Assembly: GCA_035528375.1 (NCBI GenBank)
Contig: DATKYS010000059.1
Coordinates: 1 to 7,246 of the forward strand
Origin: a bacterium
GTDB taxonomy: Bacteria; RBG-13-66-14
Length of the DNA stretch: 7,246 nucleotides
Direction of reading: 5' to 3'
In this document: one piece after another, positions 1 to 7,107 of the stretch
Layout of the letters: each line of letters begins with the position of its first letter
How positions within the stretch are numbered: the stretch's first letter is position 1
Notes under the pieces: generated by a model
Database searches by the model: none
The model's input: the letters and a program-made list of their open reading frames with translations, nothing else
Told to the model about the DNA's origin: nothing
Translations under genes and position numbers: made by a program

Positions 1-594
1 GTGGGTGGCCACGATGACCGTGGTCCCGCGCGAGGCGATTTTGCGCAGCAGGTCCATGATTTTCTGCGAGAGGTCGGGATCCAGGTTGCCCGTCGGCTCG
101 TCGGCCAGCAGAAGCTCGGGGTCGCCGGAGATGGCGCGGGCGATGGCGACGCGCTGTTGCTCGCCGCCGGAAAGCTCCTCGGCGAAGGAATCGGCCCGTC
201 CCTCGAGCTCCACGATGCGCAGGATGGAGTCTATGCGCCGCCGGCGCTCGTCTTTGGACAGGCGCCGGATCCGCAGCGCGATGTCCAGGTTTTCCACGGT
301 GGTCCGCCGGGACAGAAGGCGGAAGTCCTGAAACACAACGCCGATCCGCCGCCGCAACCCGGGCAGGTGGCGGATTTTCAGGCGGTTCATGTCGTGCCCC
401 AGAACCGCGAGCTCGCCCTCCGTGGGGCGCTCCTCGCCGAAGAGGAGCTTGAGGAAAGTGGTCTTGCCGGCCCCGGAGGGACCGGTGAGGAAGGTGAACT
501 CGCCCTTGGGGAGCTCGAGGTTGACGTCGTGGAGGGCCAGGATGCCGCGGGAGTAGCGCATGGCGACGTGCTGGAAGATGGCGACTTGGACCAC
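1..594 (-). CDS. ftsE: FtsE-like cell-division ABC transporter ATP-binding protein (3' end cut by window edge)
   Basis: This is the ATPase of the FtsEX complex, which sits at the inner face of the division septum and activates periplasmic cell-wall hydrolases through FtsX. The visible 198 residues contain the full ABC core: Walker A GPSGAGKTT (38-46), Q-loop Gln89 in VVFQDFRLL, signature LSGGEQQ (141-147), Walker B LLLADE (161-166) followed by PTGNLDP, and the switch histidine as the last residue before the edge. The VVFQDFRLL stretch and the RY-x-x-G start of the fold are typical of FtsE rather than LolD or MacB. The GTG start at 594 is chosen because AGAGGA (606-601) lies 6 bases upstream and the N-terminus then has the usual FtsE length. 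The gene has its own promoter downstream of thiL. ftsX would be expected just beyond the left edge. About 20-30 C-terminal residues are missing. LolD-type exporter ATPase is the main alternative. Confidence 0.93.
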   Translation of the reverse strand, partial: MVQVAIFQHVAMRYSRGILALHDVNLELPKGEFTFLTGPSGAGKTTFLKLLFGEERPTEGELAVLGHDMNRLKIRHLPGLRRRIGVVFQDFRLLSRRTTVENLDIALRIRRLSKDERRRRIDSILRIVELEGRADSFAEELSGGEQQRVAIARAISGDPELLLADEPTGNLDPDLSQKIMDLLRKIASRGTTVIVATH

Positions 595-3926: not shown

Positions 3927-4010
3927 TACGTAATCTTTTCCGGGTTGAGTTTGCGGTTCTGTAGTTATCAACGTCTCTTTGCCCGAAAGGGCTCAAGCAA
4001 AGGAGAAACC

Positions 4011-4661
4011 GTGAAAAAGCTTCTGCCGCTTCTTCTGGTTCTGGCGCTGATCATGCCGGCCACGGCTCTGAACAAAGACGGCCTGTTGTCCATCGGCGGC
4101 CGGGTCTTCTACTGGCTCCCCATGGGTGACTTCGCCAACGCTTACACCAGCTCGGTGGGCTTCGGCGCGAAGGTGGGCTACGGCCTGGCCGAAAACTTCG
4201 AGTTCCTCGGCGAGGCGTGGTACGGCATGGCCGGCTTCAACGAGGACTTCTGGGGCGATACGAACCTTGGCGATGAGGATACCACCTACTACCTGGTGAC
4301 CTTCCAGCTGGGCGGCCGGTTGAACCTCTCCCCTTACAGCCCCTTCGACCCGTACGTCCAGGTCGGCGCCGGTTACTACTCCTGGGCGTACACCAAGGTT
4401 GACAATGAGGCCGGAACCTACACCTACGGCGATGCCTCAGTAGACAAGTTCGGCATCAACCTGCGCGCCGGCGGTGAGTTCTTCACCTCCAACCAGATGA
4501 GCGTGGACGTGGGCCTGGAGTGGAACTCCATCTTCGGCGTCACCGTGCCGATCAAGGACTGGCACGACCCCGACGACCACAGCCAGGGCTGGGATTACGA
4601 CACCGAGGACCAGACGGTCAACATCCTCACCTTCGGCATCGGGCTGAACCTCTACTTCTAG
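4011..4661 (+). CDS. Small outer-membrane beta-barrel protein, copy 1 (function unknown)
   Basis: The 216-residue protein begins with a classical signal peptide: KK at 2-3, a leucine-rich core, and ATA at 17-19 with cleavage expected before Leu20. The rest shows alternating hydrophobic and polar strands rich in Gly, Tyr and Phe and ends in GLNLYF, with the terminal aromatic residue recognised by the BAM assembly machinery. This fits an 8-stranded or similarly small barrel of the OmpA/OmpW-like porin-fold type in the outer membrane. Two likely loops (about 76-92 and 183-202) are strongly acidic. The GTG start at 4011 is chosen over the ATG at 3945 because AGGAG (4001-4005) lies 5 bases upstream and the signal peptide begins there. 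It is paralogous to the next gene, sharing WLPMG, FDP(Y/F)VQ, GGEFFT and ILT-GLNLY. No specific substrate or role can be named. Confidence 0.85.
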   Translation: MKKLLPLLLVLALIMPATALNKDGLLSIGGRVFYWLPMGDFANAYTSSVGFGAKVGYGLAENFEFLGEAWYGMAGFNEDFWGDTNLGDEDTTYYLVTFQLGGRLNLSPYSPFDPYVQVGAGYYSWAYTKVDNEAGTYTYGDASVDKFGINLRAGGEFFTSNQMSVDVGLEWNSIFGVTVPIKDWHDPDDHSQGWDYDTEDQTVNILTFGIGLNLYF

Positions 4662-4815: not shown

Positions 4816-5481
4816 GTGCGCAACTTGTTGATAGCAGGCCTGATATTGTTTCTCTGCCTCCCCGCGGCGGCGATAGACAAGACCGGCCTCTTCTCCGTGG
4901 GGCCTCAGCTGGCCATCTGGCTCCCAATGGGGCCGATAAACCAGTCGGTCCTCGAGCAGGGCAGCTTCGGGGGTCTGTTCAGTTTCGGCCTCGGCGAGGC
5001 GTGGTCCATCGTGGTCCGGGCGGCGCTGGACCTCGCCGGGAAGGATGGGGGTTACTTCGAGAACGCCTTCCCGGCGGGCTCCGACGTGGACTTTAACCTC
5101 TTCCAGGCGCACCTGGGCCTGCGGTGGAACATGACCCCCCGCGCCCGATTCGACCCCTTCGTCCAGTTCGGGGTGGGCTACTTCGGCTGGCCGGTGTACG
5201 AGGGTGAGGATCCGGTAACCATCCGGGGGAGACAGATGTACGAGTCGCTGACGACGGAGCGCGACCCCACCCGGGGGCAGGTTTTCAGCGGCTGGGTCGC
5301 CGTCGGCGGCGAGTTCTTCACCGATGCCGCCCTCTCCCTGGAGTTCGAGATAGGCTACGACGCCGTCTTCGACTTCCCCCGGCCAATCAAGGAGGAGACC
5401 GAGGACCTGGTGGGCTGGAACTACGAGGAGGAACTCCTCCACATCCTCACCCTGGGTCTCGGGCTCAACCTCTACATCTGA
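4816..5481 (+). CDS. Small outer-membrane beta-barrel protein, copy 2 (function unknown)
   Basis: The 221-residue protein is a diverged tandem paralogue of the preceding gene. It has a signal peptide with AAA at 17-19 (cleavage before Ile20), then the shared landmarks WLPMG (35-39), FDPFVQ (112-117), GGEFFT (164-169), RPIK (189-192) and the C-terminal strand LTLGLGLNLYI. The last residue is Ile rather than the usual Phe/Tyr/Trp, preceded by Tyr, so the barrel-assembly signal is slightly off-consensus. Cys14 in the signal peptide lacks the small residues of a lipobox and is not conserved in copy 1, so a lipoprotein is unlikely. The GTG start at 4816 is supported by GGGAG (4805-4809) six bases upstream and by alignment of the signal peptides. 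Separate promoters suggest the two copies can be expressed independently. Pairwise similarity is concentrated in strands; the loops differ. The role is unknown. Confidence 0.84.
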   Translation: MRNLLIAGLILFLCLPAAAIDKTGLFSVGPQLAIWLPMGPINQSVLEQGSFGGLFSFGLGEAWSIVVRAALDLAGKDGGYFENAFPAGSDVDFNLFQAHLGLRWNMTPRARFDPFVQFGVGYFGWPVYEGEDPVTIRGRQMYESLTTERDPTRGQVFSGWVAVGGEFFTDAALSLEFEIGYDAVFDFPRPIKEETEDLVGWNYEEELLHILTLGLGLNLYI

Positions 5482-5553: not shown

Positions 5554-5580
5554 GTAGGGCGGGGACTTTAGTCCCCGCCG
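5554..5580 (+). repeat. Palindromic element A (GTAG + 10-2-10 hairpin)
   Basis: GTAG (5554-5557) is followed by a perfect 10-bp inverted repeat, GGCGGGGACT with AGTCCCCGCC, around a TT centre, then G. TTGTTT follows, so it could also terminate the barrel transcript. Its size and flanks match element B in inverted orientation, marking both as members of one repeat family. Confidence 0.75.
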
Positions 5581-5780: not shown

Positions 5781-5806
5781 GGCCGGAACGGTTTCCTTCT
5801 CCGGCC
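5781..5806 (-). terminator. Hairpin at the end of purN, possible terminator
   Basis: A perfect 7-bp inverted repeat (GGCCGGA at 5781-5787 with TCCGGCC at 5800-5806) begins on the last base of the purN stop codon. The 12-base loop and the absence of a U-tract make it a weak intrinsic terminator; it may act together with the palindromes further on. Confidence 0.4.
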
Positions 5807-6420
5807 TACGTGCGAATCACCCGCCTCCCCTCGACGCGGTACTTTCCCGAGAGCACCAGCCCCGCGGCCTCGGGGTAGAGCGCGTGCTCCTCGACCAGGA
5901 TGCGCTCCGCCAGCGTATCCGGGGTATCATCATCCAGGATCGGCACCACGCGCTGGGCGACTATCGCCCCGCCGTCCAGGCTTGAGTCCACGAAGTGTAC
6001 GGTGCAGCCGGAGAACTTCACCCCGTACTCCAGGGCCTGACGCTGGACCTCCAGGCCGGGGAAGCTGGGCAGGAGGCTGGGGTGGATGTTGAGGATGCGG
6101 CCGGCGAACGGTTCCAGAAGCGGCGCCTTCACCACCCGCATGAAGCCGGCCAGACAGACGAGATCCACGCCGGCCTCGCGGAAGGCCTCGGCGTAATCCC
6201 GGGCGTCGTCGCCGTCCAGCTTGGTCCGGTACTTCGCCGGCACCAGGACCCGAGCGGTCACTCCCAGGGCGCGGGCCTTCTCCAGACCGGCGGCGTCGGG
6301 CCTGTCGGAGAGGACCAGGGCAACTTCGGCGTCCAGCCTCCCGTCGCGGCAGGCCTCGATGAGGGCGACCATGTTGCTGCCGCGACCACTAATCATTATC
6401 CCGATCCGTTTGCCTGGCAA
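5806..6420 (-). CDS. purN: Phosphoribosylglycinamide formyltransferase (PurN)
   Basis: PurN transfers the formyl group of 10-formyl-tetrahydrofolate to glycinamide ribonucleotide, the third step of purine synthesis in the cytoplasm. The 204-residue length matches the family (E. coli 212). Landmarks are the phosphate-binding loop ISGRGSN (10-16), AGFMR (91-95), the catalytic NIHPSLLP (111-118) with Asn111 and His113, and VDSSLDGG (144-151) with the catalytic Asp149. The C-terminal EEHALYP segment (177-183) is also typical. A TTG start at 6420 is chosen: a perfect AGGAGG (6432-6427) lies 6 bases upstream and the protein then begins two residues before the first beta strand. The open frame continues to 6615 but that part covers the divergent promoter and the antisense of the next gene. 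It stands alone, divergent from rfaE2, with no other pur gene in view. Confidence 0.95.
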   Translation of the reverse strand: MPGKRIGIMISGRGSNMVALIEACRDGRLDAEVALVLSDRPDAAGLEKARALGVTARVLVPAKYRTKLDGDDARDYAEAFREAGVDLVCLAGFMRVVKAPLLEPFAGRILNIHPSLLPSFPGLEVQRQALEYGVKFSGCTVHFVDSSLDGGAIVAQRVVPILDDDTPDTLAERILVEEHALYPEAAGLVLSGKYRVEGRRVIRT

Positions 6421-6432: not shown

Positions 6433-6445
6433 GGTACGGCCGAAC

Positions 6446-6474
6446 TTGACCCGTCGGGGAGAGGAGTCTACAAT
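6446..6474 (+). promoter_or_regulatory. Sigma-70 promoter of rfaE2-kdsB
   Basis: TTGACC (6446-6451) and TACAAT (6469-6474) are separated by 17 bases. The start site is expected near 6481, about 24 bases before the ATG at 6505. Its -10 is superimposed on the -10 of the purN promoter on the other strand. Confidence 0.75.
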
Positions 6475-6498
6475 ACCCGCCGTTGCCCACGAGGTCAA
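6470..6498 (-). promoter_or_regulatory. Sigma-70 promoter of purN, mirror image of the rfaE2 promoter
   Basis: On the minus strand TTGACC (6498-6493) and TATTGT (6475-6470) are separated by 17 bases. The start site is expected near 6463, about 43 bases before the TTG start. The -35 lies within the rfaE2 leader, next to that gene's start codon. Confidence 0.65.
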
Positions 6499-6504
6499 GG
6501 TCCG

Positions 6505-7107
6505 ATGAACCGAGTCCTGTCCACCGAGGAGCTGCTCGTCCACTGGGAAGCCGAGGGAAGACCGCGCAAGGTGGTTTTCACCAACGGCTGCTTCGACCTG
6601 CTGCACCCCGGCCACGTCCGGTATCTAACCGCGGCGCGGGGACTGGGCGACTGCCTGGTCGTGGGCCTGAATGACGACGCGGGGGTATCGCGTCTGAAGG
6701 GTCCGTACCGACCGTACCTGACCTTGGCGGTTCGTGCCGAGCTTCTGGCGGCCCTAGAAGCGGTGGATTACGTGGTCCCCTTTTCCGAGGACACGCCGCT
6801 GGAACTGGTAAAGCGACTGCGTCCTGATGTTTTAGTCAAAGGTGGAGGCTACGAGAAGGACATGATCGTAGGTGGCCAAGAGGTTGTGTCCTGGGGGGGC
6901 GAGGTGGTCGTGCTGCCCTTGGAAGATGACTTCTCCACCACGGCTATGGCGCTTGCCATTGGCGATTCGACGAACGCCGAGATGGAGGAAGACATTTCGG
7001 CCATATTCAGGCCTTATGGGGTCGGGATGGGTGGTCGGGCCACTAAGCACAAGGCCAAGCGGGATAAACGAATTCACCGGGCCGGCGGCAGAAGGGGCAG
7101 AAAGTAG
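6505..7107 (+). CDS. rfaE2: D-glycero-beta-D-manno-heptose 1-phosphate adenylyltransferase (RfaE2/HldE C-terminal type) with basic tail
   Basis: This cytoplasmic nucleotidyltransferase converts heptose 1-phosphate and ATP to ADP-heptose, the precursor of the LPS inner core. The cytidylyltransferase-like fold is evident from [16 protein letters not shown] (26-41), containing the HxGH motif HPGH (34-37), then RLKGPYRP (63-70), RAELLAAL (77-84), the [19 protein letters not shown] block (94-114) and STTAM (144-148). It is the stand-alone form; the HldE kinase domain is not fused. The family usually ends near residue 155-160, but this protein continues to 200 with an unusual tail: an acidic patch (159-163) followed by a Gly-, Lys- and Arg-rich end (173-200). 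No frameshift is apparent. The ATG at 6505 has only a weak AAGG 5 bases upstream. Its TAG stop overlaps the kdsB GTG by one base. A related adenylyltransferase with another sugar or glycerol phosphate is possible, but the kdsB neighbour favours heptose. Confidence 0.9.

Follow-up and report, generated by a model that had tools for sequence, protein, structure and literature searches.

The divergent genes purN and rfaE2 are separated by 84 bp, and this gap raises the question of whether one promoter region can serve both genes. Within the window (the whole stretch of DNA that was analysed, 7,246 nucleotides), the pattern TTGACC, 17 bases, TACAATA, 17 bases, GGTCAA is found at 6446-6498, exactly where a first-pass annotation had reported it. 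It is the single exact match in the window, and 200 shuffles of the window produced none. The best explanation, to which we assign a probability of roughly 0.7, is that the gap would act as a sigma-70-type bidirectional promoter. This explanation was accepted because the mirrored form between purN and rfaE2 is genus-wide, because the bases GTCAA are invariant amid varying neighbours, and because of the way in which promoters are used across this genome. The features concerned are:

5806..6420, minus strand: purN, phosphoribosylglycinamide formyltransferase (TIGR00639, 220.6 bits; cutoff 150.1)
6446..6451, plus strand: putative -35 facing rfaE2, TTGACC, identical in 4/4 genus members
6469..6474, plus strand: putative -10 of the rfaE2-facing promoter, TACAAT, with a predicted start at 6481-6482
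6470..6475, minus strand: putative -10 facing purN, TATTGT, which overlaps the rfaE2-facing -10, with a predicted start at about 6463
6493..6498, minus strand: putative -35 of the purN-facing promoter, TTGACC (TTGACG in the genus member G003), GTCAA invariant in 4/4 genus members
6497..6500, plus strand: AAGG, which may be the ribosome-binding site of rfaE2, 4 nt before the ATG and kept in 4/4 genus members
6505..7107, plus strand: rfaE2 (hldE C-terminal type), heptose-1-phosphate adenylyltransferase (TIGR02199, 186.2 bits; cutoff 181.5)

The gene identities first proposed are secure, with PurN and RfaE domain II both above their TIGR cutoffs; the rfaE2 product has a C-terminal extension. Translation of purN starts at a TTG (6420-6418) with AGGAGG upstream, and both the start position and the ribosome-binding site are kept within the genus, the start codon being GTG in G003. 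The rfaE2 ATG at 6505 is likewise conserved in position. Elsewhere in the window, a hairpin at 5558-5579, GGCGGGGACTTTAGTCCCCGCC, lies between purN and a convergent outer-membrane protein gene and is a member of a dispersed palindrome; exact copies of GGGGACTTTAGTCCCC number 18 in the genome (both strands counted) versus 0 for the reversed control, and the palindrome may be a REP-like element or a shared terminator. Two adjacent, similar-looking outer-membrane beta-barrel genes occupy 3945-4661 and 4816-5481, although their barrel-family matches are weak. A near-consensus promoter, TTGACC-17-TATAAT (11/12), is found on the minus strand at 641-669, directly upstream of an open ABC-ATPase frame of FtsE-like look (1-594, minus strand) that runs off the window.

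The arrangement between purN and rfaE2 had been described as perfectly mirror-symmetric. This is true of the -35 and -10 elements and of their spacing, but the spacers match at only 7/17 positions, which rules out a perfect palindrome at 6446-6498. Overall, 30 of the 53 bases equal their reverse complement; the centre of symmetry is base 6472, and the mirror extends to both -35 hexamers and, within the -10, to the outer TA/TA. An independent consensus scan found both strands promoter-like (10/12 rightward and 9/12 leftward, with a 17-bp spacer in each case), and both -35 boxes match 5/6 of the consensus at exactly 17 bp. Because the two arms are perfect 6-base complements, TTGACC and GGTCAA might instead be read as the well-separated halves of an inverted repeat, to which a dimeric or looping protein binds to regulate both genes, and not as a pair of -35 boxes. 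That would be very improbable, since the distance from each arm to a -10 is exactly 17 bp, the genome itself uses TTGAC as its -35, the spacers are asymmetric, and the arms of G003 differ from one another (TTGACC/CGTCAA).

The promoter usage of the genome bears directly on the bidirectional reading. The pattern TTGAC-N18-TANNNT occurs at 251 sites in the 2.63-Mb genome versus 11 for a reversed-pattern control, and TTGAC-N18-TANNNTA at 71 sites versus 2. The sample of promoters consisted of 98 flanking stretches of TTGAC-N18-TANNNT sites; a ribosome-binding site and an open frame lie downstream of 59/99 sampled sites, compared to 24% of random positions. This usage (251 versus 11, and 59/99) makes TTGACC and TACAAT credible elements here. 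In the sampled promoters the discriminator (-4 to -1) is strongly C-rich and leads into G at +1/+2. The phylum is sparsely sampled, and this composition next to the start could be compared with that of other phyla. When 97 promoters were ranked on their variable positions, the rightward site came 70th and the leftward site (TATTGT) 86th, so that neither is among the strongest promoters of the genome. Among 30 sampled TANNNTA sites, a mirrored -35 (at least 4/6, 16-18 bp) was found only at the purN-rfaE2 site, on both strands, and judged on these 30 sites there is no genome-wide enrichment of mirrored -35 boxes.

The strict mirrored form occurs once per genome in all four species of the genus that were examined, each time between purN and rfaE2, and is absent from the ten other genomes of the phylum that were examined; relaxing the boxes to TTG..CAA reveals no second mirrored site common to the genus. 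When the four intergenic regions are aligned, which needs no gaps, TTGACC, TACAATA and GTCAA do not vary, whereas 8 of the 9 bases immediately ahead of the leftward -35 do. The proportion of invariant fourfold-degenerate columns in the same species is 34.5% for purN and 17% for rfaE2, and by this yardstick the 5/5 invariance of GTCAA has a chance probability of about 0.0001-0.005, a figure for four species with one shared history. Base composition alone predicts about 0.002 strict mirrored sites per genome. Chance alone would not explain the same gene pair in four species. In 50 genomes of other groups the strict pattern was found twice (control, 0), probably by chance. The rightward promoter block from -15 to +3 is also strongly conserved in the genus, and one might ascribe this to control at the RNA level by a riboswitch or leader hairpin. 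We find that hardly credible: the window has no Rfam match, and both leaders fold no better than shuffled sequences (z +1.2 and +0.6).

A more serious alternative, unlikely but deserving real weight, is that the rfaE2-facing promoter alone is real. GGTCAA would then be a coincidence preserved by the rfaE2 leader (GTCAAGG), and purN would have a weak or remote start. The possible ribosome-binding site AAGG adjoins the GTCAA box and takes in the final two bases of the purN-facing -35. It is a confounder, since translation of rfaE2 could account for some of the conservation of GTCAA. However, a distance of 4 nt to the ATG suits AAGG poorly to that role, and the GTC that lies outside AAGG is also invariant, with a chance probability of about 0.005-0.04 in the same four species. 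A coincidence is made easier by the roughly 70 TTGAC-N18-TANNNTA sites of the genome, among which about 0.05 mirrored -35 boxes are expected by chance, but it would also have to account for a spacing of exactly 17 in all four species. In addition, purN comes first on its strand and needs a promoter, and no other leftward promoter-like site is present within 250 bp upstream of it in any of the four.

The predicted leftward start argues in the other direction. It falls in TCCTCTCC, a conserved run of pyrimidines that lacks any purine from -1 to +4. Only 3/99 promoters of the genome share this condition, and leftward transcripts would have to begin with a pyrimidine. Pyrimidine initiation is possible but usually weak. 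The purN-facing -10, TATTGT, is itself weak, and weaker than the rfaE2-facing TACAAT; a T at -18, which corresponds to a start with A on the opposite strand, is absent in both directions (the plus strand has G at 6463 and C at 6481). The initial inference that each strand carries a full promoter is supported in 4/4 genus members for both -35 boxes, the 17-bp spacings and the shared -10. To call the promoter the same in both directions would go too far, given the weaker purN-facing -10 and a start region that lacks a purine. As a separate observation, the purine-rich stretch GGGAGAGGRGTC at 6452-6468, left of the -10, is conserved at 12/17 positions in the genus, which exceeds the needs of a plain spacer; for purN, this stretch would correspond to the region of the pyrimidine start. 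On balance, the rfaE2-facing promoter is nearly certain to be real and the purN-facing promoter is likely to be real but weaker; both directions would fire, with that of rfaE2 the stronger.

The divergent purN-rfaE2 pair is also present in three other genera of the family (G004, G005 and G006), and their rightward promoters are recognizable: TTGACC-17-TAGAATT in G004, TTGCCC-18-TACAATA in G005 and TTGCTT-17-TACAATA in G006, the -35 boxes of the last two being weaker than TTGACC. A leftward TTGAC at the correct distance is absent from all three, and the best leftward candidate in both G005 and G006 is TGGTCA-18-TAGACT. Loss of one -35 box in close relatives with the same gene pair had been named as grounds for rejection. 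Within the genus no such loss is seen (4/4 keep both boxes and their spacing), but one level up, in these three genera, the leftward box is gone. Retention of the rightward half and absence of the leftward -35 across the family is what one would expect if only the rfaE2-facing promoter mattered. The data are most simply explained by an older rightward promoter, whose partly symmetric -10 was probably already present in the family ancestor, and a leftward -35 that this genus added to it. The family comparison suggests how bidirectional promoters may be completed step by step. Outside the family a different gene lies upstream of purN (purM-like and murein-hydrolase-like frames, identified by eye alone), and a scan of genome contigs for close relatives returned distant rfaE2 homologues only. 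A possible PurBox of the B. subtilis type, CCGAAC at 6440-6445, was ruled out because it occurs in this genome only, the sister species having CCCAAC or CTCAGC.

In the proposed mechanism, a single -10 region would be read on either strand, with a separate -35 box on each side, and the housekeeping RNA polymerase would bind in one of two mutually exclusive orientations. The rightward orientation would start transcription near 6481-6482, so that the rfaE2 mRNA has about 23 nt of leader; the leftward one would start near 6463 and give the purN mRNA about 43 nt. Because the -10 elements overlap, the two orientations should exclude each other by geometry. One hypothesis is that the promoter sets the ratio of purine to LPS synthesis. 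In its most developed form, which we regard as a long shot, a naturally strong promoter, anchored by two -35 boxes and fixed in one genus, would use steric exclusion, with no regulator at all, to set the ratio between the synthesis of purines through purN and the activation of LPS heptose through rfaE2. The purN transcript would start with a pyrimidine and could make this ratio sensitive to CTP/UTP levels.

Bidirectional promoters with a shared -10 have been described in bacteria by Warman, Forrest, Middlemiss, Grainger and colleagues (PMC10268837, PMC12825309). The class is defined by opposite-strand -10 elements that overlap with reciprocal -7T/-11A (PMC10268837) and by opposite-strand transcript starts 7-25 bp apart, with -35 elements on both sides optional. 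In TACAATA (6469-6475), the rightward -11 coincides with the leftward -7 at 6470, and the rightward -7 with the leftward -11 at 6474. The predicted purN and rfaE2 starts are 18 bp apart, which, with the reciprocal -7/-11 overlap, is the configuration reported as commonest in bacteria, from work on E. coli and Salmonella (PMC10268837, PMC12825309). The site thus resembles the E. coli and Salmonella promoters in its overlapping opposite -10s, its -7/-11 overlap, its predicted 18-bp separation and its divergent genes. It differs in having no T at -18 in either direction, a base that is favoured in those organisms but typical rather than obligatory (PMC10268837), in having no leftward purine start, and in coming from a sparsely sampled phylum. 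As in an ordinary divergent promoter pair, one intergenic region would serve two divergent genes; however, ordinary pairs have separate -10s, whereas here they overlap and two polymerases could not bind at once.

Five E. coli bidirectional promoters, each with two flanking -35 hexamers, showed no competition at basal activity and did compete once one -35 was improved; in E. coli, competition appears only at high activity (PMC12825309). The purN-rfaE2 site shares the two-sided hexamers, with TTGACC at 17 bp on both sides and TTGAC on both sides in 4/4 genus members, and it is set apart from the reported promoters by a 5/6 match on each side at exactly 17 bp. These boxes could place it nearer the competing regime, although its weak leftward -10 argues against this. 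The reported E. coli examples are weak and free of competition at basal activity, which makes the purN-rfaE2 site a candidate for a promoter that operates naturally in the strong, competing regime: it would be a conserved natural bidirectional promoter with near-consensus -35 boxes and optimal spacing on both sides. The kind of promoter is already known, but the purN-rfaE2 example is new and has an unusually complete set of elements.
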